NCBI GenBank assembly: GCA_021776525.1
Contig: JAJFFT010000004.1
Location: 280,499 to 344,498, forward strand
DNA length: 64,000 bases
Origin: Robiginitomaculum sp.
GTDB lineage: Bacteria; Pseudomonadota; Alphaproteobacteria; Caulobacterales; Maricaulaceae
Direction: 5' to 3'
The notes under the pieces: model-generated
Seen by the model: the letters and a program-made list of their open reading frames with translations, nothing else
The model's database searches: none
Told to the model about the DNA's origin: nothing
Shown: piece after piece, positions 8,519-32,772 of the stretch
Numbering within the stretch: position 1 is the stretch's first letter
Layout of the letters: each line of letters begins with the position of its first letter
Position numbers and translations under genes: made by a program

Positions 8519-8520
8519 AT

Positions 8521-12403: not shown

Positions 12404-12409
12404 GCTCTT

Positions 12410-14719
12410 CTATGCTGCGTCCACAATGGCGGCGTCAAGTTCTGCCTCTCTGTTGCCAATCAGTTCATTCACTAAATCAGCCTGGGGGTGTGCTCTGTTA
12501 TAAAGCCCATCCTTGGTGTGTTGTGCATCCACTGTCTGGCCTTGTCTGGCTTGAACCAGCACCAGATGAAAGGTCCCCTGAATGGCCATTTCTGTGTGCG
12601 TTTGTTGTGCGCATAAGGCCCCGAAATAATAGGCAGCATCATCCAGATCGCTGCGCCGCTTCAAAGCATCCAGGCCCAGTGCAAATTGCAAGCCGGGGTC
12701 TTGATTGTCTGAGGCCAGAGCCTTGACAGTGCCAAGGTATTGCGCGGCGATTTTTGTATCGCCGACATTCACTGCATTCAGAAAAATATGGGCCTTGGCG
12801 GCGTTAATGCGGGCCTCGGTGTCGGCGCGATGATCATCGTCAGACAGTGCCAGAGCTTTCTCCAGCCAGCCCAGCGCCTTTTGCGGCTGGTCAGCCAGAT
12901 AGGCCAGCCCCAGGGCTTCGGCAATGGCAAAGTCTTTTGGTTTTAGTGCCCGGCTCTGCAAAGCCGTGCTGATAATGTCGCGTTTGGTGGCAAAGGCGCT
13001 CTGACCACCCTGTACCAGCAGCTCGACCCCATGAGCCGCAGCATGGCTGGCCCAAATATCACGCATCGCATTGCTTTGTGTATCATTTGGGGCATGTTCC
13101 AGCGCTTTTTGGAGCCAGGCAACGCCACTGGCCCGGTCAAAGTCGTAGTTTAGGGCCATCATGGCGAGCCCCATGGCGGCGGCACGCTCGAAGGCGCTGG
13201 TACAATTTGTGGTCTGCAAGGCGCTGATAACGTTGGGGCGCAGTGTCGCTGCGGCTGAATACTCCCCGTTATTCGCAGCGGCGGCAAACACCTCAAAGTG
13301 GGTTTTATTGAACTGTTCTGGCAAAGAGAGGCGAATGGTATCATCAAGGTTTTCGAACGCACTAATGGCTTGGGGCAGGTCGGATCGGATCAGCAGGCTG
13401 ATGATCAGAAGCTGTGCGGATTGCGCCAGTTTGCGACTGTCCAGATCCGAAGCATTGACCATGGTCAGGGCAGGCTCAATGATCTGGTAACTGCGTGTAC
13501 AAGCCCTGAAATAGGCCAAAGCCTGATCATGGTCCTGCGCATGGTTCAGGGCTTGTATGCCGCCGCAATAAAGCGCGCTGGTCAGATTAAACGGACGTGT
13601 GTCTGCATACGCAATAAAATCGGGCCGGGCCTGCGTATCGGTTTCGATGCTTTTGGGGTCATTAAGATCAAGGCCGTAAACCTTGGTCCAATGGGTGTGC
13701 AGCTTGGCAAAGGTTTGTTGTGCCGGTTCATAGTCTCCGGCATCAATCTGGGCGCGTAACAATCGCCCGGCATAGCCAGAGGTCAGATGGTGAGGCAGAT
13801 CTTGACGACGCAACCCTTCTTGCAGATAGCGTAATAAAACCGGCCGATCTATTGGCCTGTCGAAGTCCACATTCAGCGGTTCGCTGGAGGCAAAGGCATA
13901 AAGCGTATCTCCGGTGGATTTGACCTCGGTATGAGAGAATCCGGCGCGTTGTAAACAGGCCTTCAGGCCGCCTTCGCTGAACAATACCAGATGTGATCCG
14001 GGCGAGAGCAGCGGTATAACCTCTTCGATGGGGCGCTCTTGGCGCAGGCCACCAATATCGGGGGTGGTTAGCAATACCGTTCCATGGGCTCCGGCGGCAT
14101 GTGCCAGAACCCCAACAAAGGGATCGGGGTCGGCGATATGCTCGATAACTTCAGACGAAAAAATTAAATCAAAGGGCCCGTTATCCAATTTGGTGTCGGC
14201 ATCAAGATAGCCATCCATAATGGGGATGCCCAATTCTGATGATCCGGTGCGCGCTATATGAGAGGGGTCAATGCCCTGAACCGTCCACCCCAAAGCGCTC
14301 GAAGCGAAATCAAGAGAAAACCCGTATCCACATCCGACCTCCAGCAAAGAGGAGGTATTATCTTTCTGCGCCCAGAAGAATGGCGCAATCATTGTTTCCA
14401 GGCCCGCGCCTTGCTCCACGTAAAACTTTTTGGGCGCGTCATAACCGTCTACTTGCCCGCCATGTGACTGGTTTTCATAAATCGGCGCGGATACGTCCGG
14501 GCAATGTGCCGTCTGGCAAGCCGGGCAGTCATAAAGACGATAGCGGCGAATCCGAGAGTAGGGCGAGGCGATAGATCGTACCGTTTGCATTGTTGAGTGT
14601 ATATGACAGGCCGGACAGCGTAGCTGTCGAGGCAGGCCTTTTTCCCAACACAGCCAGCCTTTTTTGTGGGCCAAAGGTGTCAGGCTTTCAAGAAAATGCA
14701 ATACGGTCATAATGTTCAA
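12410..14719 (-). CDS. SAM-dependent methyltransferase with N-terminal zinc-ribbon-like cysteines and long helical-repeat (TPR-like) C-terminus
   Basis: 'CPAC...CPAC', methyltransferase motif I 'LLEVGCGYGFSLDFAS', 'FDLIFSSEVIEHIADPDPF'; ~450 aa Ala/Leu-rich helical C-terminus. Confidence 0.8.
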   Translation of the reverse strand: MNIMTVLHFLESLTPLAHKKGWLCWEKGLPRQLRCPACHIHSTMQTVRSIASPYSRIRRYRLYDCPACQTAHCPDVSAPIYENQSHGGQVDGYDAPKKFYVEQGAGLETMIAPFFWAQKDNTSSLLEVGCGYGFSLDFASSALGWTVQGIDPSHIARTGSSELGIPIMDGYLDADTKLDNGPFDLIFSSEVIEHIADPDPFVGVLAHAAGAHGTVLLTTPDIGGLRQERPIEEVIPLLSPGSHLVLFSEGGLKACLQRAGFSHTEVKSTGDTLYAFASSEPLNVDFDRPIDRPVLLRYLQEGLRRQDLPHHLTSGYAGRLLRAQIDAGDYEPAQQTFAKLHTHWTKVYGLDLNDPKSIETDTQARPDFIAYADTRPFNLTSALYCGGIQALNHAQDHDQALAYFRACTRSYQIIEPALTMVNASDLDSRKLAQSAQLLIISLLIRSDLPQAISAFENLDDTIRLSLPEQFNKTHFEVFAAAANNGEYSAAATLRPNVISALQTTNCTSAFERAAAMGLAMMALNYDFDRASGVAWLQKALEHAPNDTQSNAMRDIWASHAAAHGVELLVQGGQSAFATKRDIISTALQSRALKPKDFAIAEALGLAYLADQPQKALGWLEKALALSDDDHRADTEARINAAKAHIFLNAVNVGDTKIAAQYLGTVKALASDNQDPGLQFALGLDALKRRSDLDDAAYYFGALCAQQTHTEMAIQGTFHLVLVQARQGQTVDAQHTKDGLYNRAHPQADLVNELIGNREAELDAAIVDAA

Positions 14720-15422
14720 TCGCTGTGTCTATCGGTCCTGAATACAGAGACTTTCCGTCATTGAGAACCAGACCGTCATCACATAAGTCACGTAAGACAG
14801 CAGTGGCGTGGCTGACCATGACAAAGGCCTTGCCTTGTGCTTTGGCGGCATAGAAAAAATCAAAGCATTTCAGTTGAAAAGCCGCATCGCCTGCGCCTAG
14901 CGCCTCATCTATGAGCAAGATGTCTGTGGGGGCCATGGCCGCCATGGAAAAGCCAAGGCGAGCATATTGCCCGGCCGAATACCACCGTGTTGGTTCATTC
15001 AACTTGTCACCAAGTGCGCTAAACGCGGCGGTGCGGTCATAATATTCATCACGCTTGTCAGTGGGAACGTGCAACAACCGGGCGACAAGGCGCAGGTTTT
15101 CCCATCCGGTCAGATCAGGATGCGCTCCGGCACCAACTTCCAGTAAGGCGCCAATCTGGCCACGCAAGATGGCCTCGCCTTCGCTGGGGTCCACAATCCC
15201 GGCTAGAATTTTCAAAAGGGTACTTTTGCCAGAACCATTACGTCCCATCACCGCCAGCGCCTTGCCCGGTTCCAGGGTGAAGCTGATCTGATCGAGAGCC
15301 GTGCGGGTTTTCTTCGTCTCGCCGCCAAGGCGGTGGTAAAGCGGGCGATCGCCACCAGTATTGATCAGGGCAAAGCGTTTGGTCAGGTCACGTGCTTCAA
15401 TGGCCAAAGATTTAGAGCTCAT
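14688..15422 (-). CDS. wzt: Polysaccharide ABC exporter ATPase (Wzt/TagH/KpsT type)
   Basis: Walker A GRNGSGKSTLLK, signature YSAGQYARLGFSMA, Walker B DILLIDEALGAGD; H-loop VSHA. Start set at MSSKSLAIEARDL. Confidence 0.88.
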   Translation of the reverse strand: MSSKSLAIEARDLTKRFALINTGGDRPLYHRLGGETKKTRTALDQISFTLEPGKALAVMGRNGSGKSTLLKILAGIVDPSEGEAILRGQIGALLEVGAGAHPDLTGWENLRLVARLLHVPTDKRDEYYDRTAAFSALGDKLNEPTRWYSAGQYARLGFSMAAMAPTDILLIDEALGAGDAAFQLKCFDFFYAAKAQGKAFVMVSHATAVLRDLCDDGLVLNDGKSLYSGPIDTAIEHYDRIAFS

Positions 15423-16233
15423 CCGCGGCACGTCCTTCCAGCGCAAGGAACATCCACAAGCCAATCGCCCCCAGCGTGAACGCCGCCAGTGCGGATATAC
15501 CAAAATGCCCCCAATGGGGCGCAGGGGCACCCAAAAGGGACCAACGCAGGGCGCTGATCAGACCTGAAAACGGGTTGAGGGCGTAGAGTGCTTGCCATTT
15601 GTCCGGGATCAGTGAGGCCGGGTAGATGACCGGTGAGGAAAACATCAAAATTTGCAGGCCCAGAGGAACCATTTGGCGCATATCGCGCCAGACCCCGCAC
15701 AGCGCCCCTAAAATGGCTGATAAGCCAAAAGTGGCAACCATGGTTATGGCAACAAAAACCGGTGCCATCAGAAGTGGCCATCCCGGTTGTGTACCGAACA
15801 ACAAACCTGCAATTACGGCCACGGTGAGGGCGATACTGCTATCGACCATTGCACTTAAGTTGGCGGAGATGATCGGGTAAAGTCTTGGCATGGGGGTCTG
15901 GCGTAAAAGCGGCGCTGCCGACAGGAACGCATTGGCCCCCTCCGCGGCACTGTTGGCCACCAATGACCACAAGGCAACGCCGGTAAAGACCATGGCAGGG
16001 TATGGGGTGCCGTCACTGGGCACGCGCACCAACATGCCAAAAAAAACAGAAAACACCACCGCTTGGGCGGCAGGTTGCAAGATTAGCCAGCCAAGGCCAA
16101 TGGCCGGTTTGGCAAAGCGCCCGCGGATATGGCGAAATGTCAGGGCCCACAATGCTTCGCGCTGTGCCCAAAGGTCGAGCAGGCGGCCTGCGGGGCGCGC
16201 TTTTCGAATGGTGATGTGATGTTCCATCGACAT
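15412..16233 (-). CDS. wzm: Polysaccharide ABC exporter permease (Wzm/TagG/KpsM type)
   Basis: 'LWAQREALWALTFRHIRGRFAKPAIGLGWLILQPAAQAVVFSVFF', 'FSSPVIYPASLIPDKWQALYALNPFSGLISALRW' are ABC-2 polysaccharide permease hallmarks. ORF track extends to 16305. Confidence 0.9.
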   Translation of the reverse strand: MSMEHHITIRKARPAGRLLDLWAQREALWALTFRHIRGRFAKPAIGLGWLILQPAAQAVVFSVFFGMLVRVPSDGTPYPAMVFTGVALWSLVANSAAEGANAFLSAAPLLRQTPMPRLYPIISANLSAMVDSSIALTVAVIAGLLFGTQPGWPLLMAPVFVAITMVATFGLSAILGALCGVWRDMRQMVPLGLQILMFSSPVIYPASLIPDKWQALYALNPFSGLISALRWSLLGAPAPHWGHFGISALAAFTLGAIGLWMFLALEGRAADEL

Positions 16234-16259
16234 GACTGCCTTGTGCCTCACCATGTGCC

Positions 16260-17045
16260 TCACAGCAAGGCGAAATTGGTTCCTGTAAAGCCGGACCAGA
16301 GCCACAGCACATAAATCGAAAGCGCCAGAGCCGGGCCAAACGGGATTTGGGTATCGCGACGTAAAGACTTGCCTTTACTGCCCACGATTAAAACCGCCAA
16401 AGCGGCCGAGGCGGCCATCAAAATAATCCAGGGCAGGGCAAAAACGCTCATCCAGGCTCCGCCACCAGCCAAGAGTTTGGCATCGCCAAGCCCCAGGCCT
16501 TCATGGCCGCGCAACATGCGATAAGTAAAGGCAACGCTCCAGAAGATGCCATACCCAAAGGCCGCGCCGATGATGGCACTGAGCAGCCCCGCATTGCCGT
16601 GGGTCAGATAGAAGACAACGCCGCCGCTGGTTATGATGAAATATGAGGCCCCGTTGGGGATCAGTTTGGTTCGGTAATCGACCAGAGCAATGAACAACAG
16701 AACCGCGCCAAGGGTGGCACTGACCAGCATCATCCAGCCATGAAACACATAGACCGCGCTCAGTGCAATAAGTGTGCTGGCTAGTTCGGCAACAATATGC
16801 TGGCGATTGATCGGCGTGCCGCAGTTTTTGCAGCGGCCATGCAGGATGAAAAAGCTGAGGAGCGGGATGAGATCAAGCAAGCCAAGAGCACGGCCACATT
16901 GTGCACAGGATGAACGCGAGGCCCCCAGATTGGAACGGCGTGGCCAATCCAGAGCACTGGCGCTGATAAAACTGCCCATAAAAGGCCCGGTCAGAATGAG
17001 AAACAGGCTCAACCAATTGTCGTTGGCCAAAACCGGTAATGTCAT
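16260..17045 (-). CDS. gspO: Prepilin peptidase (A24, GspO/PilD-like)
   Basis: CAQC...CKNC tetracysteine, 'VDYRTKLIPN', 'GHEGLGLGDAKLLAGGGAW'; 4 bp overlap with gspD. Confidence 0.92.
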   Translation of the reverse strand: MTLPVLANDNWLSLFLILTGPFMGSFISASALDWPRRSNLGASRSSCAQCGRALGLLDLIPLLSFFILHGRCKNCGTPINRQHIVAELASTLIALSAVYVFHGWMMLVSATLGAVLLFIALVDYRTKLIPNGASYFIITSGGVVFYLTHGNAGLLSAIIGAAFGYGIFWSVAFTYRMLRGHEGLGLGDAKLLAGGGAWMSVFALPWIILMAASAALAVLIVGSKGKSLRRDTQIPFGPALALSIYVLWLWSGFTGTNFALL

Positions 17046-19219
17046 TGAGCGCCAGTGTCCGCGTCGCCTTTGCCCGCGTCTTCGTCTTTGTTGGCCTCAC
17101 GCAAAATCAATGTCATGCGCTCGCGTAATTCGTCCAATATTGCCTCGGCACCAGTGTCAGGATCAATGATTCTGGGGGTTAGGAAAACCAGTAATTCAGT
17201 ACGCTTTGTTGTGGTTTCATGACTGCCAAAAGCATCGCCAATCAGTGGGATGTCCGATAAAACCGGCAATCCGGTGTTGCCGATCTGTTTGGAATCACTG
17301 ATCAGACCACCCAGAACAATGGTTTGACCGCTGCGCGCAGAAATAGTGCTTTCCAGCACGCGTTTAGAAATGGTCGGCGTCAGTTCGCCGGTTGAGGCGG
17401 TGGTCGAAACGTTACTGACTTCCTGTTTAACATCCATGGTCACCATGCCGGTGGAGCTGACCCGCGGGGTGACGTCTAGAATGACGCCTGTGTCCAAAAA
17501 CTCGACTGAATTGACCAAAGGCGCGTTGACATTGATCACATCTGTGGACTGGCGAGTGATCACCGGCACCTGATCGCCAACTTGTAAATGTGCGGACTGG
17601 TTATCCAGCACCACCACGGATGGCGCCGAGACCACTTTCAGGTCGGTGACATTGTCCAGAGCATCCAGAGCAAAGCGGGCGCTGTCACCCTTGTTCAGAA
17701 CAAAGTTGAAGCCCGGAAATGTACCACTGGCATTAAAGCTGTTCCCATTGGAAAAACCGCCTTGCCCACCGCCGCCATTGGGGCCGTTGCCAATGCCCAA
17801 TATGCTGCCGGTTTCGAAGAAATACTGAACCCCGTAACGCAACACATCATTCAGTGTGACTTCGGCAATAACCATATCGATCAGAACCTGAGCGGGCGGA
17901 TGGTCAATTTCGCGCAAGGCCTGCGCCACCAGACGCTGTCCTTGTGGTGTCGCCAGAACCACCAGAGTGTTATTGATCGGGTCACCAATGATACGCGGAG
18001 CGCTGGATAAGCCGCTGCCCAGTACAGAGCCTTTGTTTCCTGTACCGCGGGATGCCGTCTTGGTGCGCTTGGCCGATGCCCCAGGGCTGGACACGCTGCG
18101 TTGGGACAGACCCGGTGATACCGAGGACGAGCGGGTCGTCGGACCGCTGCCGCCAAAAAGCTGTTGCAGGAGATCGGCAGTTTCCAGTGCTTTACCATTA
18201 TCAATTTTATAGGTGCGCAGGCTGACGTCACTGGGCCCCCCAAGGTCCAGTCGATCAACCCAGCGTTTGGTCCGTTCCAGAATGGCCATGCTGGGAGCAA
18301 TCGCCAAGACCGCGTTGATGCGTGCCATCGCCTGAAGTTTCAGGGCACCATCAAGGCCGCCGCCTTCCCCGGTTTGCATGATCAGTTCCAGCTCGCTGAT
18401 TACATCTGCGGCTGAGGCGTTTTTGAGGCGAAAAATCGCTGTGGACATGCCCGCAAGCCAGTCAACATCAAAGGCCGATATAGCGGACAGGGCATTTTCA
18501 CGTTCGCGGGCTGTACCGGTGATGAAAATCAGGTTTCGGGCCGTGTCGGCGCGCAAGGCGCCTGGGCGGCTTATGGTGTTCTCTAGCAAGGACATCATGT
18601 TTGTTGCGGAAACATGGTCGAGGGGCATGATGGTGATACCAAGGCCGGGGGCGCTGGCGCTTTTCAGGCGAACCTGGCCTCCGGACAGGGCTTCGCCTGC
18701 CGGACTGATCAGATAGCGCCCGGCTTCGTCAATCAATCGTGCTGAGCTGTTACCCAAAACTGTTTCAAGAAGAGATAGCAAAGAGCGCCGGTCGACCGGG
18801 CCACCGGTCGCTGCGGTAACCTTGCCTTGCACCCGTGGGTCCAAAACAAATGGAACTTCCAACAGATCGCCCAAAATTGTCTGAACAACTTCGGGGAGGC
18901 TGGCGTCCTGAAAATTGACGTTAAAGCCGCCCGCAATGGTCTTAGTACCAGCACTGCGCAGCGGGCCTGTCTTGCGACCTGTTCCCGGAAAAATCTGTGA
19001 TGGGGTTTCATCAGTGCCGCGATAACCAGTGTCTTGTTCAGGCGCAGGTGTGTTTTCTTGCGGGCCATTTGAACCGGGCGATGTTTGAAAGACCCGCGAA
19101 AACGGGTTGCCCAGCCCTTTTGTCTGCGATCCTGTCTGACAGGCCGACAAAGCAAGCACAGCACCAACAAAGAGTGGCACCGCCATCGAAATTCTACTTT
19201 TCGTTATACTGGGTTTCAC
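17042..19219 (-). CDS. gspD: T2SS secretin GspD with predicted lipoprotein signal
   Basis: Secretin domain ('VPVITRQSTDV...VEFLDTGVILDVTPRVSSTGMVTMDVKQEVSNV', 'GQTIVLGGLISD'), N-domains, lipobox 'LALSAC'; GTG start with AAGGAG upstream. Confidence 0.95.
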   Translation of the reverse strand: MKPSITKSRISMAVPLFVGAVLALSACQTGSQTKGLGNPFSRVFQTSPGSNGPQENTPAPEQDTGYRGTDETPSQIFPGTGRKTGPLRSAGTKTIAGGFNVNFQDASLPEVVQTILGDLLEVPFVLDPRVQGKVTAATGGPVDRRSLLSLLETVLGNSSARLIDEAGRYLISPAGEALSGGQVRLKSASAPGLGITIMPLDHVSATNMMSLLENTISRPGALRADTARNLIFITGTARERENALSAISAFDVDWLAGMSTAIFRLKNASAADVISELELIMQTGEGGGLDGALKLQAMARINAVLAIAPSMAILERTKRWVDRLDLGGPSDVSLRTYKIDNGKALETADLLQQLFGGSGPTTRSSSVSPGLSQRSVSSPGASAKRTKTASRGTGNKGSVLGSGLSSAPRIIGDPINNTLVVLATPQGQRLVAQALREIDHPPAQVLIDMVIAEVTLNDVLRYGVQYFFETGSILGIGNGPNGGGGQGGFSNGNSFNASGTFPGFNFVLNKGDSARFALDALDNVTDLKVVSAPSVVVLDNQSAHLQVGDQVPVITRQSTDVINVNAPLVNSVEFLDTGVILDVTPRVSSTGMVTMDVKQEVSNVSTTASTGELTPTISKRVLESTISARSGQTIVLGGLISDSKQIGNTGLPVLSDIPLIGDAFGSHETTTKRTELLVFLTPRIIDPDTGAEAILDELRERMTLILREANKDEDAGKGDADTGAQ

Positions 19220-20864: not shown

Positions 20865-21208
20865 GTAAACCTTAGAGCGAAGAGCGCCGTGATTCGACCC
20901 TTAAAGTTGATTCGATGGATACTGTGCACCCAAACGGGAGAAAACAGGCGCAGATTGTCACCAAAGAGCCACAAACCTGATAAAAAGGTCAAGAATTGGG
21001 CGGACTCACTGGATTTTCCGTTAAACCGTGTGTATGCGAGTGCGGGGTCTTATCACGAGATCTCACAGGCGCGTTATCAAGAGGGTTAATGGACTCTTGG
21101 GCGCAAGAATTGGGTATCGACCCAAACGCATGGGTTATTGCGGGGTCGATGGTATTGGGGCAGGGGCTGATCGCTTTCTGTCTATTATGGTTTCTGAGGG
21201 GAACTTAT

Positions 21209-24200
21209 ATGATCAGTTTAAGACAACTCGCGGGCGGCGTTGCCGCAGTCGCAATAGTGGCTTCGTTTGCCGGTCAGGCAGCAGCGCAACAAACAACATC
21301 AAATCTTCGCGGCACAGTGACAAACTCCACTGGCGCTGGCGTATCAGGTGCTCAAGTCACAATTTTGCACGTTCCTTCCGGGTCGGTTCGTCAAATCTCG
21401 ACCGGTTCAGATGGCAGCTATACAGCTCGTGGTCTTCGCCCGGGTGGTCCTTACATACTGACGGTTGTTGCACCGGGTAACGCGGCTTATCGTGTCGAAG
21501 ACCTGTTTTTAAGCCTTGCAGACACCAAACGCCTGAATGTCTCGCTTGATGATGTTATTCGTGAAGACGCCATTGTGGTTACGGCCAGCTCAATCGTTAC
21601 AGGCAATCTGACCATGGGTGCCGGTTCCCGGTTTGGTCTGGACACCATTCAGGGTGTGCCAACCACCACGCGGGACTTTAAAGATGTTCTGAAGCTTGAC
21701 CCTTCTGTGTATCTTGATCCAACCAACCAGAATGCCATTTCCATCTCTGGCGGTAACAATCGCATGCTCTCCATCACTGTTGATGGTGTGCAACAGAACG
21801 ATAAATTTGGTCTGAACGGTTCAGGTTTCCCAACTTTGCGTTCGCCGATTTCCATTGATGCCATTGCCGCCATCAACGTGGAAAAAACGCCTTTTAACGT
21901 TGAGTTTTCTGGTTTTGAAGCTGGTTCAGTCAACGTTGTAACCAAATCTGGTACAAACGATTTTCATGGTTCTGCCTTTGGTTACCGTCGCAACAGCAGC
22001 TTCACCGGTGGTGGTCTGAATGTTGACGAATGGTCCTATGGCGGCACTTTGGGTGGCCCGATCATCAAAGACAAGCTGTTCTTCTTTGCCAGTTATGACC
22101 GTTTCGAAGCCACCAACATCTTTACACGTGGCCCGGCTGGGTCTGGTGCTGTTGATGAGGTTTCTGAAGTTACTTTGAACGACATTTCCGAAGTTCAGCG
22201 TATTTCGCGTGATGTTTATGGTTTTGACCCACTTGGGTTTAATGCCAATAACCTCAAAGAAATCGATGAAAAGATGTTGTTCAAGCTGGACTGGAACATC
22301 AACGAAAACCACCGGGCCAGCCTGACCCACCAACGGGCCAAGGGCAACCAATTGCGCCCGCAAAACAGCTTTGCCAACCGTATTGGCTTGTTGTCAAACT
22401 GGTACAACAACTCGCAAAAATTGCGCTCTACGTCCTTCCAGTTGTTCTCTGACTGGACAGACAAGTTGTCGACTGAAATCAAGGTGGCGTTCAAAAATTC
22501 ACCGACTGATCAGGCTCCTCTGGGCGGGCTCGACTTTGCCCAGTTCCGTATTGACACGCCAGGTGGTGGTCGCATTTACCTTGGTCCCGATGTGTTCCGT
22601 CAAGCCAATGACCTGGATAACGATACTTGGACCTATAAGTTCAATGCCGATTATTCTACGGGCAACCACCTGCTGACATTTGGTGCCGAGCGTGAAAAAA
22701 CAGATATCCAAAACCTGTTTGTACCGTTTTCACGCGGTGATTATACGTTTAGCTCAATAGCCGATTTTGAAAATCAAGTTGGCAGCATTTTCTATATTAA
22801 CGCTGTGTCCGGAAATCCATTGGATGCCGGTGCCGACTGGAGCTTCAGCATCAACTCGCTCTATATACAGGACGAGTGGGACGTCTCCGACCAGCTGACT
22901 TTGCTGTTTGGCGTACGTTATGAAGATTATGGTTCGACAGACAGTATCACCGAGAACCCCAATTTTGTTTCCCGTTTTGGTTTCTCCAATACGGCAACAC
23001 TCAGCGGGCGCGACATTATTCTGCCGCGCGTAGGCTTTACCTGGACACCAGACGACACCACAAAAATCTTTGGTGGATTTGGTCTGTTCTCAGGCGGCGC
23101 ACCTTCCGTGTGGGTTTCCAACAACTACTCCAACGACGGTGTAACGCAGGATTCGATCTTCGTTTTCCGTCCGGCAGTTGTTGACGGGTTCAATATTCCA
23201 ATTGAAGCCAGCTCTGGCCTGGTTGCAGGTGACGGTAACGTCAATGCTCTGGACCCGAACTTCAATATCCCGTCAAACTGGAAGTTTACTCTGGGCATTG
23301 AAAAAGAAGCTGACGTTCCATTTGTTGGTGACTTCCTTGGTAGTGACTGGACGTTCAAAGCTGATGCGATCTACACATCTGTTAAAGATGCCAACTTCTG
23401 GCAGGACATTGCATGTTCTGTCACTGGTACCGTGTCTGATGGTCGCCCGCTGAACACCTGTGACCCGGATCGCTTTGACGTTCTGTTGACCAACACAAGT
23501 GTTGGTCATGGTACGGTGTTGTCATTCCTGGCGGCCAAATCGTTTACGGAAAACTTTGATTTCCGGACCACGTATTCGCATCAGAACATCAAAGATGCCA
23601 ACTCAGGTGTTTCCTCAACGGCTACATCAAACTTGGGTCGTAATGCTGCTTTTGATCGCAATACCCCGATCGCTTCTACGGCGAACTATGAACGCGAGCA
23701 TCGCTTCACGTTTAACTTCGATTATCGCAAGAGCTTCTTTGGTGACAACCAGACACGCTTCACCTTGTTTGGTGAAACCAAATCTGGTCAGCCATTCAGT
23801 TATACTTTCGATGATCGTACCAACCGCGGCAGCTTGAGCGAGTTTGGGTTTAACCGTGAATTTGCACGGCGCGATTCTCAACTGTTCTACGTGCCAACGG
23901 GCGCTGGCGATTCAAATGTTGATCTTTCCGGCATTTCCGATCTGAATGCGTTCTTCTCCTTCCTGGAAAGCTCAGGCCTGAACAAATACGCCGGTGAAAT
24001 TGCACCACGTAATGCGTTCCGTACCAAATGGGTTGCGCGTTGGGATCTTGGTATCAAGCAGGAAATTCCGGGCATCTTCCCGGCTGCTGCCAAAGGCATC
24101 TTGTCAATGGATATCCGCAATATCGGTAACCTGATTGATGGTGGCTGGGGCAATCTGCAACAGATCAGTTTCCCATATGTAGAGCCGCTTGTCAGAGCTA

Positions 24201-24319
24201 CAGTGGATGCAAACGGTCAACTGGCCTATAGCAATTTCAGTGCTGGTCCAAACCGGCTGACAACCTTCTCACAAGCGTCAAACTGGTCCGTTCAGTTTGG
24301 CTTGAAATACCAGTTCTAA
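21209..24319 (+). CDS. TonB-dependent receptor, Oar-like with carboxypeptidase-regulatory-like N-terminal domain
   Basis: Signal peptide (MISLRQLAGGVAAVAIVASFAGQAAAQ), 'LRGTVTNSTGAGVSGAQVTILH', plug 'ITVDGVQQNDKFGLNGSG...VEKTPFNVEFSGFEAGSVNVVTKSGTNDFHGSAFGYRR', C-terminal aromatic F. GAGGGGA SD precedes ATG 21209. Confidence 0.92.
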   Translation: MISLRQLAGGVAAVAIVASFAGQAAAQQTTSNLRGTVTNSTGAGVSGAQVTILHVPSGSVRQISTGSDGSYTARGLRPGGPYILTVVAPGNAAYRVEDLFLSLADTKRLNVSLDDVIREDAIVVTASSIVTGNLTMGAGSRFGLDTIQGVPTTTRDFKDVLKLDPSVYLDPTNQNAISISGGNNRMLSITVDGVQQNDKFGLNGSGFPTLRSPISIDAIAAINVEKTPFNVEFSGFEAGSVNVVTKSGTNDFHGSAFGYRRNSSFTGGGLNVDEWSYGGTLGGPIIKDKLFFFASYDRFEATNIFTRGPAGSGAVDEVSEVTLNDISEVQRISRDVYGFDPLGFNANNLKEIDEKMLFKLDWNINENHRASLTHQRAKGNQLRPQNSFANRIGLLSNWYNNSQKLRSTSFQLFSDWTDKLSTEIKVAFKNSPTDQAPLGGLDFAQFRIDTPGGGRIYLGPDVFRQANDLDNDTWTYKFNADYSTGNHLLTFGAEREKTDIQNLFVPFSRGDYTFSSIADFENQVGSIFYINAVSGNPLDAGADWSFSINSLYIQDEWDVSDQLTLLFGVRYEDYGSTDSITENPNFVSRFGFSNTATLSGRDIILPRVGFTWTPDDTTKIFGGFGLFSGGAPSVWVSNNYSNDGVTQDSIFVFRPAVVDGFNIPIEASSGLVAGDGNVNALDPNFNIPSNWKFTLGIEKEADVPFVGDFLGSDWTFKADAIYTSVKDANFWQDIACSVTGTVSDGRPLNTCDPDRFDVLLTNTSVGHGTVLSFLAAKSFTENFDFRTTYSHQNIKDANSGVSSTATSNLGRNAAFDRNTPIASTANYEREHRFTFNFDYRKSFFGDNQTRFTLFGETKSGQPFSYTFDDRTNRGSLSEFGFNREFARRDSQLFYVPTGAGDSNVDLSGISDLNAFFSFLESSGLNKYAGEIAPRNAFRTKWVARWDLGIKQEIPGIFPAAAKGILSMDIRNIGNLIDGGWGNLQQISFPYVEPLVRATVDANGQLAYSNFSAGPNRLTTFSQASNWSVQFGLKYQF

Positions 24320-24343
24320 TCTTATTAGACACGGTTAAAGATT

Positions 24344-24375
24344 ACGGGGTGGCCCTTGGCCGCCCCGTTTTTTTT
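24344..24375 (+). terminator. Rho-independent terminator after the TonB receptor
   Basis: ACGGGGTGGCC-CTT-GGCCGCCCCGT followed by TTTTTTTT. Confidence 0.9.
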
Positions 24376-24546
24376 GCGCATTTCTTTATGATGTCCAATT
24401 TCTGATAATAAATCCTCATCCAGCTACACATAAGGCCTTGCTCTTGGCGAAACCTGCGTCAAAATCCTCTCCCGAGTCGCAGACGGTTATGATGCACGTA
24501 AAAGGCCGCCGTCATTGCTCCTAGGGCGCTTCTGGCGCTGGAGAAT

Positions 24547-25389
24547 ATGATGGGGAGGCTAGGGATGGCCAGGACTGCAAAACACAAACTTCCAGATGAG
24601 AATGCGCCGGCATTAACGGCGCAAAATACCAACGTATCATTTGGTGCATTCAAGGCGCTGGATGGTGTCGATCTGAAAGTCGAACGCGGCGAAATGGTTG
24701 CTCTGATCGGGGCATCAGGTTCCGGTAAATCAACTTTGCTGCGGACCATTGATGGTTTGCAACAGGCGGATCCCGGCTCTGGGCGCCTGGAAGTTTTTGG
24801 ACGTAAATTGCAACGTGACGGGCGGCTGGCCAAGGGGCTGCGCTACCGGCGTCGTGATATCGGGTTTATTTTTCAATCCTTCAATCTGGTCGGGCGGCTT
24901 AATCTGTTCACCAATGTGTTGATTGGCTGTCTGGGCCGCATCCCCACCTGGCGCGGTATCTTTGGTGCTTTCCCGGACGAAGACAAAGTGCGCGCCATGG
25001 CGGCACTGGAACGTGTCGGCGTTGCCGAGTTTGCCGGGCGACGCACGTCAAAACTCTCCGGCGGCCAAAAACAACGCGCAGCAATTGCCCGCGCGCTGGT
25101 GCAACGGGCCCGCATGGTGTTGGCCGACGAGCCGATTGCCTCGCTGGACCCGGTATCGGCCCGCAAGGTAATGGAACTTCTTCAGGAATTGAATGACCGC
25201 GACGGGCTGACCGTGGTGGTCTCTTTGCATCAGGTGGATTACGCCATGCGCTATTGCCAGAGGGTTGTGGCGCTCAAAGCCGGCAAGATTATTTTTGACG
25301 GTCCGGCCAAAGGTTTGGACCGCAAAACCCTGATCAAGATTTATGGTGAAGAGTATGAGGACGCCTTCTGGACGGCGGAGGCGGTATAA
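24547..25389 (+). CDS. phnC: ABC transporter ATPase, PhnC-like
   Basis: GASGSGKSTLLRTIDGLQQ, LSGGQKQRAAIARAL, 'VLADEPIASLDPVSARKVMELL', 'VVVSLHQVDYAMRYCQRVVALKAGKIIFDG'. Exact start uncertain (Met at 24547, 24565). Confidence 0.9.
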   Translation: MMGRLGMARTAKHKLPDENAPALTAQNTNVSFGAFKALDGVDLKVERGEMVALIGASGSGKSTLLRTIDGLQQADPGSGRLEVFGRKLQRDGRLAKGLRYRRRDIGFIFQSFNLVGRLNLFTNVLIGCLGRIPTWRGIFGAFPDEDKVRAMAALERVGVAEFAGRRTSKLSGGQKQRAAIARALVQRARMVLADEPIASLDPVSARKVMELLQELNDRDGLTVVVSLHQVDYAMRYCQRVVALKAGKIIFDGPAKGLDRKTLIKIYGEEYEDAFWTAEAV

Positions 25390-27326
25390 TGAAAAATCGA
25401 ATTCTTCTGCTTTTAGCAACACTCATTTTAACCCTTGGGGTGTTCAACACGCCATCGGTCATGGCCCAAGTGGATAATGACGAGCCTTTGCCTGAACTGA
25501 ATTTTGGTGTCCTGACGACCGAAGCCAGCGATAATTTATCGGTATTGTGGACGCCGTTTTTGGAAGACATGGGCAAAATGACCGGCATGAAGGTCAACGC
25601 CTTCTTTTCTGCCGATTATTCGGGCCTGATCGAGGCCATGCGCTTTGAACGTATTGAGGCATCATGGTTTTCTAATAAATCAGGCCTGGAGGCTGTGCGC
25701 CGCTCTAATGGTGAAGTGTTTGCCAAGGCCACCTATCCCGATGGTGCACCGGGATATTACTCGGTTCTGCTGGTTCCGGCTGATAGCCCCTATAAAACTC
25801 TGGATGACATTCTGGTTTGTGACCAGACCATCAATTTTGGCATGGGGGATCCTAATTCAACCTCTGGGTCGTTAATGCCGATGGCTTATGTGTTTGCACC
25901 GCGCGGGATTGTGCCCAATGAGTGCTTCAAGAACGTCACCAATGCCACCCACGAAGCCAATGGCTATGCAGTGGCCAACAAACTGGTTGATGTGGCCACA
26001 AATAACACCACCAATCTTAAACGTCTGGGCCGTACCCAACCTGAAATTCTGGCTCGTATGCGGGTGTTATGGCAATCGCCATTGATCCAAACGGACCCGA
26101 TTATCTGGCGTCGGGATCTATCGCCCGAAGTGAAACAAAAGCTTCTGTATTTCTTTATGACCTATGGGCGCCGCGCCGACAGTCCGGAAGAATTGCAGCG
26201 CCAGCGCAAAATCTTGGCCGAGCTGGATTTCGGGATGTTTTTACCGGCTTCAGATGCACATCTTGACCCGATCATTCGTTTGGAAATCGTTCGCGATATG
26301 GCGACGACACGCAATGATTATTCCCTCAGCGATGAAGAACGGGCTGCCAAACTGGCGGAGTTGCAAACGCGACTTAATGAGGTCGGTGCCGGCGAAGGCG
26401 AAGTTGTTGAGGCGGTCGGTATTGTTGCCAATAACAACCGCAGCTCGCGCAGCAAAGCAAAGGCCCTGCCGTGGAAACGGGTCGGCTTTACGCTCAGCAT
26501 TGGCCTGATCGCCTTTGGTTTATTCTTCTGGAGTTCCGCCACCCGTGGTGCGGGGCCGGTCAAGCCGGTTCGCGAGCGCCTGTTTGATTCCGCGGTCTGG
26601 TCAATCTTTCTGGCCTTGTTGATCTGGGCCTATGTGGCCGCCGAAATTTATAAAACCCCCGATCTGGTCAACAATGCTGACAAGATGGGCGAGTATGCGG
26701 CCGGCTTCTTGAAACTCGACTGGAAAGAAGGCTGGCTTTATCTGCAACAAATGTCAGTGACCATCCAGATCGCACTCTGGGGGACATTCCTTTCGATCTT
26801 GTTCGCCATTCCTTTTGGTCTGCTTTCATCGCGTAATGTTGCACCTGCGCCCGTGGTATTCTTTGTCCGCCGGCTTATGGATGCATTTCGCTCGATCAAT
26901 GAACTTGTCGTCGGGACCATGTTTGTGGTGACCGTGGGTCTTGGCCCGTTTGCCGGTGTTATGGCGCTGGCGGTGCATACCACCGGTGTGTTGGCCAAAC
27001 TATTCTCCGAGGCCGTTGAGGCCATGGACCCTGGCCCGGTAGAGGGTGTGCGGGCCACTGGCGGGCGTCCCATACACGAGGTTATTTGGGGTGTTATTCC
27101 CCAGGTGGCGCCGCTCTGGACATCCTATGCGCTATATCGATTTGAAACCAACACCCGTTCGGCGACCATATTGGGATTGATCGGTGCAGGCGGTATCGGC
27201 CAGTTATTGTTCGAACAAATCCGGTCTTTCCAGTATGGGAAAACTGCGGCTATTTTGCTGATCATTATTATTGCCGTGACCATGGTTGATATGCTCAGCC
27301 AGATTTTGCGCAAACGCTTGATGTAA
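25389..27326 (+). CDS. Fused phosphonate/phosphate-type substrate-binding protein (PhnD-like) and permease (PhnE-like)
   Basis: N-term signal peptide then 'LNFGVLTTEASDNLSVLWTPFLEDMGKMTGMKVNAFFSADYSGLIEAM'; C-term permease 'LDAFRSINELVVGTMFVVTVGLGPFAGVMALAVHTTGVLAKLFSEAVEAMDPGPVEGVRATG'-like PhnE text. One continuous ORF; stop/start overlap with phnC (ATAATGA). Confidence 0.9.
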   Translation: MKNRILLLLATLILTLGVFNTPSVMAQVDNDEPLPELNFGVLTTEASDNLSVLWTPFLEDMGKMTGMKVNAFFSADYSGLIEAMRFERIEASWFSNKSGLEAVRRSNGEVFAKATYPDGAPGYYSVLLVPADSPYKTLDDILVCDQTINFGMGDPNSTSGSLMPMAYVFAPRGIVPNECFKNVTNATHEANGYAVANKLVDVATNNTTNLKRLGRTQPEILARMRVLWQSPLIQTDPIIWRRDLSPEVKQKLLYFFMTYGRRADSPEELQRQRKILAELDFGMFLPASDAHLDPIIRLEIVRDMATTRNDYSLSDEERAAKLAELQTRLNEVGAGEGEVVEAVGIVANNNRSSRSKAKALPWKRVGFTLSIGLIAFGLFFWSSATRGAGPVKPVRERLFDSAVWSIFLALLIWAYVAAEIYKTPDLVNNADKMGEYAAGFLKLDWKEGWLYLQQMSVTIQIALWGTFLSILFAIPFGLLSSRNVAPAPVVFFVRRLMDAFRSINELVVGTMFVVTVGLGPFAGVMALAVHTTGVLAKLFSEAVEAMDPGPVEGVRATGGRPIHEVIWGVIPQVAPLWTSYALYRFETNTRSATILGLIGAGGIGQLLFEQIRSFQYGKTAAILLIIIIAVTMVDMLSQILRKRLM

Positions 27327-27359
27327 GCTTGGGGCCTCGCATTTTCTGAATTTTTCACG

Positions 27360-27377
27360 CTGTCACGGGCGTGTCAC
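27360..27377 (+). promoter_or_regulatory. Pho-box-like direct repeat upstream of OprP-like porin
   Basis: CTGTCAC-GGGC-GTGTCAC: TGTCAC repeated with exactly 11 bp periodicity, matching the 7+4 Pho-box architecture. Confidence 0.6.
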
Positions 27378-27385
27378 ATTCCTTT

Positions 27386-27439
27386 CCTAGAGAAGCGCTG
27401 TCGAATGCAATTGTATGCGTTCAGCATTCTCTAGGAGGG
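27386..27439 (+). promoter_or_regulatory. 5'-leader inverted repeat overlapping the Shine-Dalgarno of the porin gene
   Basis: CCTAGAGAA (27386-27394) ... TTCTCTAGG (27427-27435), inner GCTG/CAGC extends the stem; AGGAGGGG SD at 27433-27440, ATG 27445. Confidence 0.5.
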
Positions 27440-27444
27440 GATAA

Positions 27445-28584
27445 ATGAGAAAAACTTCTCTTATGGCACTGGCCGTGACGTTGGCCGCACCAGGTGCCGC
27501 ATTAGCCGATAGTGAATTTTCCATTGCGCCGCGTGGTCGGGTTTTGTTGGACTTCTCAGATATCGATTATGATCTTGCGGGGCTGAAAACCTCAAATTCA
27601 GATACAGAATTTCGTACGGCCCGGCTCGGCATTTTTGGCAAAATGGGCAGCCGGATTAAATACGTCGCCGAATTTGACTTTGTGAATGGCGGCGATATCG
27701 CCTTTCACGACCCCAAAGCCAAGGATGTTAAATTGTCGTTCAAGGTGAACAGCAATACATCATTGACGATTGGCAATCAGAAAACGCCCAACTCATTGGA
27801 GGAGCAAACTTCTGGCCGCTTTACCACATTTTTGGAACGGGGCAGCGTCACCGACGCGTTTCGGCTGTCGCGCCGTTTTGGTGCCGTGCTGTCAACACAT
27901 GGTGATCGTTATTCATTGTCCGCCGGTGTGTTTGGCAATGATTTGAACGCTGTGCTTTACAGCCATGAAGGTTTACTCTCAAACGAGCATTCCTATGCGG
28001 CACGAGGCACTTTCACGCCGATCAATGATGATAACCACACTGTGCATTTGGGCGGCAGCATACGGCGCTTTACAGGCAATGCGGGGGATCAAATCCGGGT
28101 GCGCGCCCGCCCACGTATTCACTTATCCCAACGTCTGGTTGACGCCAATAATCAGGGTAAAAATTCGACCGTCTATGGACTCGAGGCGGCCTATGTTTCT
28201 GGCCCGTTTCATGTCGAGGGCGAATGGATGCGCGAAGATGCTCTCAATGCATCCGATGGTTTTTTTGTTCAAGCCGGCTGGTTCCTGACGGGCGAAAAAC
28301 GGACCTATAGCGTCAAGAAAGGCGCCTTTGGCCGGATCAAGCCCACCCGCGCGGTTGGAGAAGGCGGTGCCGGAGCTTTTGAAATTGCGGCACGTTTTGA
28401 CACATTGGATTTAACCTCTGCCAATGCGGGTAAAATGAATACATGGGCGGCTGGTCTGAACTGGTATCCGCAAAGCCATGTCCGGGTCATGCTTAATGCC
28501 ATTCACGCGACCGCACGCGGCGCGGCTAAATTTGGCGTTGGAAATACGGACGGCATGCAAATGCGTCTGCAATACGACTGGTAA
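27445..28584 (+). CDS. OprP/OprO-like phosphate-selective porin
   Basis: Signal peptide; 'FRTARLGIFGKMGSRIKYVAEFDF', 'LTIGNQKTPNSLEEQTSGRFTTFLERGSVTDAF', 'GPFHVEGEWM', terminal 'MQMRLQYDW'. Confidence 0.85.
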   Translation: MRKTSLMALAVTLAAPGAALADSEFSIAPRGRVLLDFSDIDYDLAGLKTSNSDTEFRTARLGIFGKMGSRIKYVAEFDFVNGGDIAFHDPKAKDVKLSFKVNSNTSLTIGNQKTPNSLEEQTSGRFTTFLERGSVTDAFRLSRRFGAVLSTHGDRYSLSAGVFGNDLNAVLYSHEGLLSNEHSYAARGTFTPINDDNHTVHLGGSIRRFTGNAGDQIRVRARPRIHLSQRLVDANNQGKNSTVYGLEAAYVSGPFHVEGEWMREDALNASDGFFVQAGWFLTGEKRTYSVKKGAFGRIKPTRAVGEGGAGAFEIAARFDTLDLTSANAGKMNTWAAGLNWYPQSHVRVMLNAIHATARGAAKFGVGNTDGMQMRLQYDW

Positions 28585-28628
28585 GGCGCGTGTTCGCGGC
28601 CTTACAAAAAAAAACAAGGAATGAAACC

Positions 28629-29762
28629 ATGAAAACCACACAATTAATGATCGCGGGCCTGTTGGCCGGGGTTTGCAGTTTTGCCGCACCGGCGCTATCT
28701 CGCGATACGCTGCACATTGTTGGCTCATCTACCGTCTATCCGTTCTCGACGGCGGTAGCGGAAAACTTTGGCGCGCAAACTGATTTTCCAACCCCGATCG
28801 TCGAATCTACCGGTTCCGGTGGCGGTATGAAGCTGTTTTGTGCCGGCGTTGGCGAAGGTACGCCAGACATCACCAATGCCTCACGGCGGATGAAGGCCAA
28901 TGAATGGACATTGTGCCATCAAAATGGTGTTACGGATATTGTCGAGGTCAAAATCGGCTTTGATGGGATTGTTTTTGCCAATGCCACCGACGCCCCGACA
29001 TTTGACCTGACTTTGAAACAGGTGTTTCTGGCCTTTGCCGCGCAAGTGCCCGTTGCGGACGATAATTGCGTTCTCAAAGACAACCCCTACACTAAATGGT
29101 CACAAATTGATCCGTCTTTGCCTGATACAAAAATCGAAGCCTATGGCCCGCCGCCAACATCGGGTACCCGTGATGCATTTGTTGAAATCGCCATGGAAAA
29201 AGGGGCCAAGCAGATATCTTGCCTAAAGGCACTTCGTTCTGCCAAACCGGGCGATGAGGCCTATCAGAGCATAACCCCCGTTTTGCCCGAAGGTATGGGA
29301 GCTTCCGCTGATGGAACTGCTTTGGCGGGTAAAAAAATATTCAAATACATTGCCCATCGTCTGCGTGAAGATGGGGCCTGGATTGATGCTGGTGAAAATG
29401 ACAACGCCATTGTGCAAACTCTTGAAAAAACACCCGCGGCACTCGGTATTTTCGGGTTTTCTTTTCTGGACCAAAATGGTGACCAGATCAAAGGCGCCCA
29501 TATTGATGGTGATGAACCCAGTTTTGAAAACATTGCCAGCGGTGCCTATCCTGTGTCCCGCGATCTGTTCTTCTATGTGAAGAAACAACACACATCACTG
29601 GTCCCTGGCATTGCCGCTTTTGTGGCTGAATTTACCAATGATGATACCTGGGGTGAGTTTGGTTATCTGGGCGATAAAGGTCTGATCCCACTGCCCGAAG
29701 AAGATCGGGTCCGCCTTGGTGAAAGCGCCCGCGCTCTTGCCATTATGACACAAAGCCCCTGA
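28629..29762 (+). CDS. PstS-like phosphate-binding periplasmic protein
   Basis: 'LHIVGSSTVYPFSTAVAENF', 'VESTGSGGGMKLFCAGVGEGTPDITNASRRM', 'GPPPTSGTRDAFVEIAM' are PBP_like/PstS hallmarks. Start placed at ATG 28629 (MKTTQL) rather than 28590. Confidence 0.88.
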   Translation: MKTTQLMIAGLLAGVCSFAAPALSRDTLHIVGSSTVYPFSTAVAENFGAQTDFPTPIVESTGSGGGMKLFCAGVGEGTPDITNASRRMKANEWTLCHQNGVTDIVEVKIGFDGIVFANATDAPTFDLTLKQVFLAFAAQVPVADDNCVLKDNPYTKWSQIDPSLPDTKIEAYGPPPTSGTRDAFVEIAMEKGAKQISCLKALRSAKPGDEAYQSITPVLPEGMGASADGTALAGKKIFKYIAHRLREDGAWIDAGENDNAIVQTLEKTPAALGIFGFSFLDQNGDQIKGAHIDGDEPSFENIASGAYPVSRDLFFYVKKQHTSLVPGIAAFVAEFTNDDTWGEFGYLGDKGLIPLPEEDRVRLGESARALAIMTQSP

Positions 29763-29768
29763 TCGAGT

Positions 29769-30914
29769 TTATGCCTGATCCGTGGGGGGCGTATTGCTAC
29801 TGTCCCTTGCGGATCGGCGCATGCGTTTGGGCAGGCGCGGGCGAACCTTTCCGCCCAGGCGTTTCAGGCGTTTCCAGAACCGCCGCCGTTCCGGCCCCGG
29901 TGGCACCTCCAGGTTTTTGACGAAATCCTCGGCGCACGCTGTCCAGGAATAGGTCAGAGCGTGTTTGCGGGCCACTTCCCGGTCCAGATCCAGACAGGCC
30001 AGACTGGCGGCCTGTAAATCTTCGTCAAAGGCCCCGGCCCCTGATGTGCCGATAATGTCTTGCGGCCCCGGCACTGGGAAAGATGATACCGGTGTTCCAC
30101 AAGCCATAGCTTCCAGATTAACCAGCCCGAAGGTGTCAGTGCGACTGGGGAACACGAACACATCTGCATCGGCAAAATGACGGGCCAATTCCTCGCCGTG
30201 TTTGACGCCGGTAAACACTATATCAGGATATTTGCGTCTTAATTCTTCTAATTGCGGGCCATCGCCGACAACCACTTTGGTGCCTGGCAGGTCCAGCTCC
30301 AAAAAGCCTTCGATGTTTTTTTCAACGGCGATGCGGCCGACATTAACAAAAACAGGGCGCTTCAAACCGGCATAAACGCCGTTTTCAACATCGCGCAGTT
30401 CAGGGTTGAACAACTCTGTATCAACACCGCGCGCCCAGGCGCTGATATTGCCAAAGCCCTTGGCCAGCAACTCTTTGCTCATGCTGGGGGTGGTGACCAT
30501 CATGCGTCCGCCGGAATTGTGAAACCGTCGCATAAACGCATAACCTAAGGACAGCGGGATAAACGGAAAACGGGCATGCACATATTCGGGGAACTGGGTG
30601 TGATAGCTGGTGGTGAAGGGCCAGTTCCATTTCAGACACAGGGACCGCGCTGTTTGTCCGATACTGCCTTCGGTGGCGATATGGATGGCGTCCGGTTCAA
30701 ACTTTTCGATGCGCCGCTGAATATCCTTTTTGGCAAAAAATGCCAGACGGATTTCTGGATATGTCGGCAAGGGCAGGGTGAAATACCCGTCTCCCGGACT
30801 GATGACTTCAACCTCATGGCCCATGGCGCGGCATTCATCGACTGTGCGGCTGAGGGTCCTCACCACACCATTGACCTGGGGCTCCCAGGCGTCGGTCACC
30901 AGAATAATGCGCAT
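29769..30914 (-). CDS. GT4 glycosyltransferase (glycolipid mannosyl/glucosyl-transferase-like)
   Basis: 'MRIILVTDAWEPQVNGVVRTLSRTVDECRAMGHEVEVISP', 'FVFPSRTDTFGLVNLEAMACGTPV' GT4 motif. Confidence 0.85.
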   Translation of the reverse strand: MRIILVTDAWEPQVNGVVRTLSRTVDECRAMGHEVEVISPGDGYFTLPLPTYPEIRLAFFAKKDIQRRIEKFEPDAIHIATEGSIGQTARSLCLKWNWPFTTSYHTQFPEYVHARFPFIPLSLGYAFMRRFHNSGGRMMVTTPSMSKELLAKGFGNISAWARGVDTELFNPELRDVENGVYAGLKRPVFVNVGRIAVEKNIEGFLELDLPGTKVVVGDGPQLEELRRKYPDIVFTGVKHGEELARHFADADVFVFPSRTDTFGLVNLEAMACGTPVSSFPVPGPQDIIGTSGAGAFDEDLQAASLACLDLDREVARKHALTYSWTACAEDFVKNLEVPPGPERRRFWKRLKRLGGKVRPRLPKRMRRSARDSSNTPPTDQA

Positions 30915-31092: not shown

Positions 31093-32772
31093 ATGACATC
31101 TCCCTCATCTGATAAGACGAGCGCCGCACATCACCACCACCATCACCATTCGCGTGCCGTGTGGCAGCGTTGGGTGGTCCGCCGCATTCGCTACCATGCA
31201 GATCATCCGGTCTGGTTGTGGCTGACAGCTGCATTGGTGGGGACATTAGCGGGCTTTGCCACCTTGGGCTTTCGGCTGTCTATCTTGGGCGTGCAGGGCT
31301 TGCTTTATGGCAGCTCCGAAGAGCGTCTGGCGAGTACCGCAGCAGCTTTGCATTGGGGGCATATATGGATTGCCCCGGTGATCGGCGGGCTGACCGTCGG
31401 GGCGCTTTTATATCTGGCAGAGCGGGCCAAAGCGCTTGGCGAAGTGCGGGCGCAAAGCGTTGCCGAAGTGATCGAGGCCCGCGCCGTCGGCAAGGGGAAT
31501 ATCGGCTTTGGTCCGGGATTGTATTCGGCGGCAATTACCGCTGTCTCGCTAGGCTCTGGGGCCAGTGCTGGGCGGGAAGGCCCGGCGGTGCATCTGGGTG
31601 CCGCATTGGCATCTTTGTTGTCGCGCACTCTGAACCTTGGAGAGCGCAACGCGCGCACATTGCTGGCCTGTGGTGCGGCGGGTGCCGTGGCGGCGTCTTT
31701 CAATGCGCCACTGGCCGGGTTGTTGTTTGCGCTTGAGGTTGTGCTTGGCCATTACGCCTTGCGGGTGATTGCCCCAACCGCGGTGGCGGCAACGGCCGGG
31801 GCCGTGGTCACCCGGTCATTCCTTGGTGCGCAACCGGCCTTTGATCTGCCGCCTGTGCCAGGGGCTAGCCTGATTGATTACCCTGCCGCTGTGCTTCTGG
31901 GTCTTCTGTGTGCCGGTTTGGCCATTGTGTTTGTAACCCTGATGGTCAAAGGACCATACCATGTGCAAAAGCTGGCGGCGCGTTTTGGGGTGCCGCTGTG
32001 GGCTTTGCCCCCCATGGGCGGCGTATTGATTGGTCTGATCGGCATTGTCTTTCCCCAGGTTCTGGGTGTCGGTTACGAGGCCACCAGTACGGCGTTGCAC
32101 GGCGGTTATGGACTTATTTTATTGCTGTTGCTGTTGTGCGCAAAAATTATTGCCACCATGGTGTCTTTGTCATTTCGCTTTGGCGGCGGAATGTTCTCCC
32201 CGTCGATTTATCTGGGCGCCATGGTTGGTGCGGCGTTTGGGGCGCTGGTTGGTATGCTGCTTGGCGAAGCGGCGGCCCCGGCATTTTTCGCCATTGTTGG
32301 TATGGGGGCATTGTCCGGCGCTGTGTTGGGCGCACCTATATCGACCACCTTGATTGTTTTTGAACTGACGCAATCATACGAAGCCTCGGTAGCGGTGTTG
32401 TTGGCGGTGTCTCTGGCTACGGTAGTCACTCAGGCCATCACCCGCGGCAATATCTTTCAAAAACAGATCGAGCTGCGCGGCTATACCTTACGCGATGGTC
32501 CGCAAAGGTTGATCCTTCAAACTGTGCGAGTCCGCGATTTCATGACCCCGATCAGCCGTCTTAAAAAAGAAATCAGCATGGCCGGGGCGGTGCTTTATGC
32601 CGATGACACGCTGGGCAAGGCTCTGGGTCTGTTGAAAGCAGAAAATCTGGATGGTGCGCCGGTCAAATCGCGCTTTGGCGAACAAAAGGTCATTGGCTAT
32701 ATCTCCCGCGAGGATGCGTTGTTGGCCTATAATCAACGCCTTGTCGAAGAACATGAGGAACGCAGCGGCTAA
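31093..32772 (+). CDS. ClC-family chloride channel/antiporter with C-terminal CBS-like domain and N-terminal His7 run
   Basis: 'SLGSGASAGREGPAVHLGA' selectivity motif, 'FRFGGGMFSPSIYLGAMVGAAFGALVG', CBS-like 'VRDFMTPISRLKKEISM'. Confidence 0.93.
   Translation: MTSPSSDKTSAAHHHHHHHSRAVWQRWVVRRIRYHADHPVWLWLTAALVGTLAGFATLGFRLSILGVQGLLYGSSEERLASTAAALHWGHIWIAPVIGGLTVGALLYLAERAKALGEVRAQSVAEVIEARAVGKGNIGFGPGLYSAAITAVSLGSGASAGREGPAVHLGAALASLLSRTLNLGERNARTLLACGAAGAVAASFNAPLAGLLFALEVVLGHYALRVIAPTAVAATAGAVVTRSFLGAQPAFDLPPVPGASLIDYPAAVLLGLLCAGLAIVFVTLMVKGPYHVQKLAARFGVPLWALPPMGGVLIGLIGIVFPQVLGVGYEATSTALHGGYGLILLLLLLCAKIIATMVSLSFRFGGGMFSPSIYLGAMVGAAFGALVGMLLGEAAAPAFFAIVGMGALSGAVLGAPISTTLIVFELTQSYEASVAVLLAVSLATVVTQAITRGNIFQKQIELRGYTLRDGPQRLILQTVRVRDFMTPISRLKKEISMAGAVLYADDTLGKALGLLKAENLDGAPVKSRFGEQKVIGYISREDALLAYNQRLVEEHEERSG

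Follow-up and report, generated by a model that had tools for sequence, protein, structure and literature searches.

Gene content of the island

We analysed a window of 64 kb from a marine alphaproteobacterium, corresponding to positions 280499-344498 of contig C4 in a 2.96 Mb genome whose genus sits in Maricaulales under NCBI. Since this genome is 94.7% complete, absences from it are not final. A first-pass annotation had named a run of phosphorus-related genes within the window, and all of them were recovered in place by open reading frame analysis combined with Pfam and NCBIfam profiles. The features, with window coordinates, are as follows.

20996..24319, plus strand: TonB-dependent receptor, Oar-like, with an N-terminal carboxypeptidase-regulatory domain (Pfam OMP_b-brl_4); a doubtful island member
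24547..25389, plus strand: phnC, phosphonate-type importer ATPase (TIGR02315, 285 bits, above cut-off)
25389..27326, plus strand: phnD-phnE fusion of 645 aa, a single ORF (TIGR03431 and TIGR01097, above cut-offs)
25479..26384, plus strand: PhnD-like binding domain, residues 31-332 (phmmer against E. coli PhnD 3p7i, E 1e-85)
26481..26537, plus strand: extra transmembrane helix linking PhnD to PhnE, residues 365-383 (hydropathy)
26583..27323, plus strand: PhnE permease domain, residues 399-645 (TIGR01097, PF00528)
27360..27377, plus strand: PHO-box-like site CTGTCACGGGCGTGTCAC, 67 nt 5' of oprP
27445..28584, plus strand: oprP, porin of the OprO/OprP family (Porin_O_P PF07396, 195 bits)
28590-29762, plus strand: pstS ORF, PstS-like periplasmic binding protein, likely start at 28629 ahead of a signal peptide (PF12849, 155 bits)
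29769..30914, minus strand: agt-type GT4 glycosyltransferase (Pfam GT4 domains)

The PhnC, PhnD and PhnE domains all exceed their curated cut-offs, PhnC and PhnE comfortably (for PhnE, TIGR01097, 281 bits vs 216.7) and PhnD barely (TIGR03431, 261.3 bits vs 261.1). The probable start of the TonB receptor lies near 21209. The island PstS scores below the TIGR02136 cut-off, and its best solved homologue is 9jwy (E 2e-82).

Type II secretion genes (PilN-like, GspG, GspF, GspE, GspD and a prepilin peptidase) occupy positions 4747-19219 on the minus strand, just upstream of the island, and in several loci of genus g7 a prepilin-peptidase-like gene adjoins phnC and is divergent from it. At positions 31093-31152, a ClC-type channel contains seven consecutive histidines close to its beginning (MTSPSSDKTSAAHHHHHHHS).

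Conservation of the island among relatives

The neighbourhoods of phnDE relatives were retrieved and the window proteins were mapped onto them (L denotes a locus and G a genome). The order phnC, phnD-phnE, oprP, pstS, followed by a convergent agt-type GT4 gene, recurs at 40-90% identity in several genera of the host's family and partly in a second family. Within the host's genus it is found in L015, L016 and L018. Because the same order persists at 40-70% identity in other genera (L059, L063, L064, L065, L071 and L072), the grouping of these genes exceeds what chance would produce. Reduced versions also occur: L062 has the island without oprP, L060 has it without the GT4 gene, L068-L070 consist of phnC-phnDE-pstS only, and L014, L017 and L019/L058 have kept phnC-phnDE alone. 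In another family, L073 reads plcP-GT4-pstS-oprP-phnE-phnD-phnC.

The TonB receptor had been counted among the island genes. It does adjoin phnC in the host's genus; however, no TonB receptor was found beside phnC in the neighbourhoods from other genera, and its membership is weakly supported. The phosphorus-starvation island itself is genuine, conserved and built of known parts. Most of it is a system of a familiar kind; the exception is one protein in which the binding protein of a phosphonate-type importer is fused to its membrane channel. Its novel aspects are how the genes are packaged, the tethering of PhnD to PhnE and the changed binding pocket. In one aquatic lineage, genes for taking up phosphate, for a further phosphorus importer and for remodelling lipids are packed together.

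PHO-box-like sites precede island genes

We scanned the window with CTGTCAYNNNNCTGTCAY, the consensus of the PhoB box. The site at 27360-27377, with one mismatch where 0.07 matches were expected, is the best PHO-box-like match of the whole 64 kb, and an equivalent site lies 66 nt ahead of oprP in L015, L016 and L018. Related sites are located about 50-60 nt ahead of phnC in most loci of genus g7 and 60-72 nt ahead of pstS in L068-L070. In total, 18 of 26 loci possess a PHO-box-like site (two mismatches or fewer) 5' of phnC, oprP or pstS, compared with 13 of 1000 random stretches (1.3%), where the random stretches were 265 bases long, between one and five upstream stretches were tested per locus, and the gene starts of the relatives are approximate. 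Within the window, the same scan gave no strong PHO box ahead of phnC, pstS or agt, nor was there a clear one upstream of pstC. The form of the window site is shared by E. coli PhoB sites such as that of phoA, TGTCATAAAGTTGTCACG (PMC10294691).

The proposal that these genes form a phosphorus-stress island was borne out by the conserved synteny together with the PHO-box-like sites, which suggest that the island would be induced by PhoB. Separately, a weak PHO-box-like element was noticed 5' of the TonB receptor, at approximately 20954-20971 on the plus strand. In the window it has four mismatches, and comparably placed elements in L015, L016 and L018 have three to four (three in L018); L058 has one with two mismatches.

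PstS presence tracks PstCAB

The first-pass annotation had remarked that no PstCAB is encoded near pstS and had proposed a genome search. This remark is correct for the window but not for the genome, as the search recovered a pstC-pstA-pstB-phoU-phoB operon on contig C6 (locus L020), with an Lrp-type regulator in front and no pstS. All five products score above their cut-offs (TIGR02138, TIGR00974, TIGR00972, TIGR02135 and TIGR02154, respectively). PhoR was not located in the host genome, and the only PF12849 protein found there is the island PstS. In Caulobacter crescentus, pstS likewise lies apart from a pstCAB-phoU-phoB operon (PMC11208175); the host differs in that its pstS lies within a phn/oprP/agt island. 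The island therefore appears to hold the pstS that this split Pst system lacks in its operon.

We then surveyed PstS across 29 genome handles, one of which (G155) is apparently G004 again. The rule is a single clear PstS per genome; two genomes show a second, weaker match besides, and in two others no PstS was found. It is encoded in the island in 17 genomes, in the pst operon in G004, G153, G093 and G019, and in neither place in G126, G037, G013, G003 and G034. In G014 and G150, neither PstS nor PstCAB (PstC/PstA) was found, and PhnC-PhnDE is kept. These two genomes are sisters by PhnDE, so the loss counts as one evolutionary event and an independent double loss was rejected. We also considered whether PhnCDE is the sole phosphate importer of this Pst-less lineage, and rejected this since both genomes carry a Pit transporter, which is present in G000 as well.

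These data reveal that the presence of PstS tracks PstCAB rather than PhnE or PhnCDE. Since genomes have a single clear PstS whose location varies and which is lost jointly with PstCAB, PstS most likely feeds PstCAB. In the Pst-less G014, genes that we named by eye as a CPBP-like membrane protein and a TetR-like regulator (L057:5662-7203) stand between agt and oprP, where pstS would otherwise be; in L014, genes resembling this pair come after phnDE.

A fused PhnD-PhnE with an altered pocket

PhnD and PhnE are fused in every PhnDE locus that we examined from the host's family (four genera), whereas in the families examined besides this one start-to-stop ORFs showed PhnD and PhnE to be encoded by two genes. 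Stop-to-stop frame lengths had pointed to fusions in other families as well; these were rejected, as the start-to-stop ORFs are separate in the loci checked. All the fused proteins carry one additional hydrophobic helix ahead of the first PhnE helix, with no counterpart in split PhnD or PhnE. This helix would allow the periplasmic PhnD domain to be joined to a permease whose N-terminus stays inside. An AlphaFold2 model of the fusion, built from seven sequences, reached a pLDDT of 38 and was not used. In L073 (9135-10997, minus strand), phnD and phnE are separate yet in frame, with one stop and one codon between them, a likely route to fusion.

The domains are those of E. coli PhnCDE (PhnT family 3.A.1.9), and the window PhnD keeps the phosphate-head ligands Y47, Y93, S127, T128, S129 and H157 as well as D205 (E. 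coli PhnD numbering). In E. coli PhnD, Glu177 and Asp205 bind the amine of 2-aminoethylphosphonate (2-AEP) (PMC5908839, PMC12718374, PMC10284923). Of this pair, the host's protein retains the Asp and has Thr in place of the Glu, and every relative examined has either Thr or Val at this position; we do not claim 2-AEP specificity for this reason. The host also differs from E. coli in its fusion through an extra transmembrane helix and in C-P lyase, for which a search had been suggested: PhnJ was not found in the host genome, and the E. coli control was detected. The protein GlnPQ similarly has a binding domain N-terminal to a permease domain in one chain (PMC8025302); unlike GlnPQ, the host's fusion has a single PhnD-type domain and belongs to a Gram-negative bacterium. 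No report of a PhnDE with a tethered domain was found in the literature searched.

The PhnD domain matches E. coli PhnD (E 1e-85) far above PtxB, HtxB and GpxB (E 1e-8 to 1e-12). Glycerol-phosphate binding of the GpxB kind was rejected because the domain is much closer to E. coli PhnD than to 9lf9, which we call GpxB-type by inference. E. coli PhnCDE is able to import phosphate (PMC6469041). Since no PhnJ was found and the E. coli system has this capacity, we favour a role in taking up phosphate or small phosphorus compounds, and PhnC-PhnDE is likely a tethered importer of such substrates. A natural fusion with a changed pocket makes the cargo of PhnCDE in bacteria without C-P lyase directly testable.

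The porin and the glycosyltransferase

The porin gave a profile match to OprP 2o4v (E 1e-36). The central phosphate site of OprP comprises D94, Y62, S124, S125, K121, K126, R34 and R133 (PMC5877670). The host's porin is a family match to OprP and OprO of Pseudomonas aeruginosa. Aligned with OprP, it has R34, D94, S124 and R133 identical and K126 replaced by Arg, and differs in that K121 is Glu, Y62 is Arg and S125 is Gly. Anion selectivity is plausible on this alignment; phosphate selectivity is unproven because of the Glu at Lys121.

In L015, L016, L066 and L073, the GT4 gene has a metallophosphoesterase gene as its neighbour on the same strand. The product of this neighbour matches Metallophos, falls far under the LpxH cut-offs and shares 54% identity with a protein of Sinorhizobium meliloti, and we infer that it is PlcP. 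The plcP-agt pair is established in lipid remodelling (PMC9239053, PMC4796936). The adjacency in relatives supports the suggestion that the GT4 enzyme is of the kind that makes phosphorus-free glycolipids, and it is best read as Agt. Compared with the pair in Pelagibacter, Agrobacterium and Methylosinus, the host has a putative homologue of the GT4 enzyme, with PlcP adjoining it in near relatives, but PlcP was found neither in the host genome nor in most members of the family, with a query that matches in L015, L016 and the f3 genomes. Agt would therefore depend on another source of diacylglycerol, or the pathway would be a reduced one.

Proposed model and alternative readings

We consider it highly probable that the whole is a PhoB-controlled phosphorus-starvation island of a Caulobacterales/Maricaulales type. 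Under phosphate scarcity, PhoB would turn on the island genes, among them that of the OprP-like anion porin. PstS, together with the PstCAB encoded elsewhere, would carry out high-affinity phosphate import and signal through PhoU, PhoR and PhoB. PhnC and PhnD-PhnE would constitute a second ABC importer, its binding domain tethered to its own permease, and most likely carrying phosphate, phosphite or small phosphonates and esters rather than 2-AEP. Agt would convert diacylglycerol to phosphorus-free glycolipids.

For PstS, the first-pass annotation had suggested an orphan role, either passing phosphate on to the PhnE permease or serving as a periplasmic scavenger or stand-alone sensor. The position of pstS immediately 3' of phnDE and oprP, away from any pstCAB, speaks for such a role. 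However, PhnE has a PhnD domain of its own, this is the only PstS found in the genome and a pstS-less pstCAB-phoUB exists elsewhere, the single pstS shifts between island and pst operon among relatives, and the lineage without PstCAB has lost PstS while retaining PhnC-PhnDE; we regard the orphan role as very improbable. The importer itself is harder to assign. That PhnD-PhnE is a distinct, family-specific tethered importer, its pocket shifted from 2-AEP towards phosphate, phosphite or a small phosphate ester, and a second PhoB-linked importer that outlasts the loss of Pst, is a reading that we hold tentatively, at slightly under an even chance. Import of true phosphonates including 2-AEP, to be broken down by enzymes encoded elsewhere, would agree with the placement of the domain on the E. 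coli PhnD branch rather than with PtxB, HtxB or GpxB and with the retention of Asp205; it is nevertheless rather unlikely given that Glu177 is lost from all members of the order examined, that PhnJ was not found in the genome and that the island has no recognised phosphonate-degrading gene.

The glycosyltransferase could instead act outside lipid remodelling of the Agt kind, in envelope polysaccharide synthesis or in sphingolipid glycosylation comparable to Caulobacter Sgt1/2. GT4 enzymes do make glycosphingolipids in Caulobacter under phosphate starvation (PMC6445935), and PlcP was not found in the host genome or in the majority of family members with a retained GT4 gene. We judge this improbable and prefer the assignment to Agt, since the GT4 orthologues that adjoin PlcP in L015, L016, L066 and L073 are 62-87% identical, and in Roseomonas mucosa a GT4 homologue (54%) and a PlcP homologue are encoded by consecutive genes.
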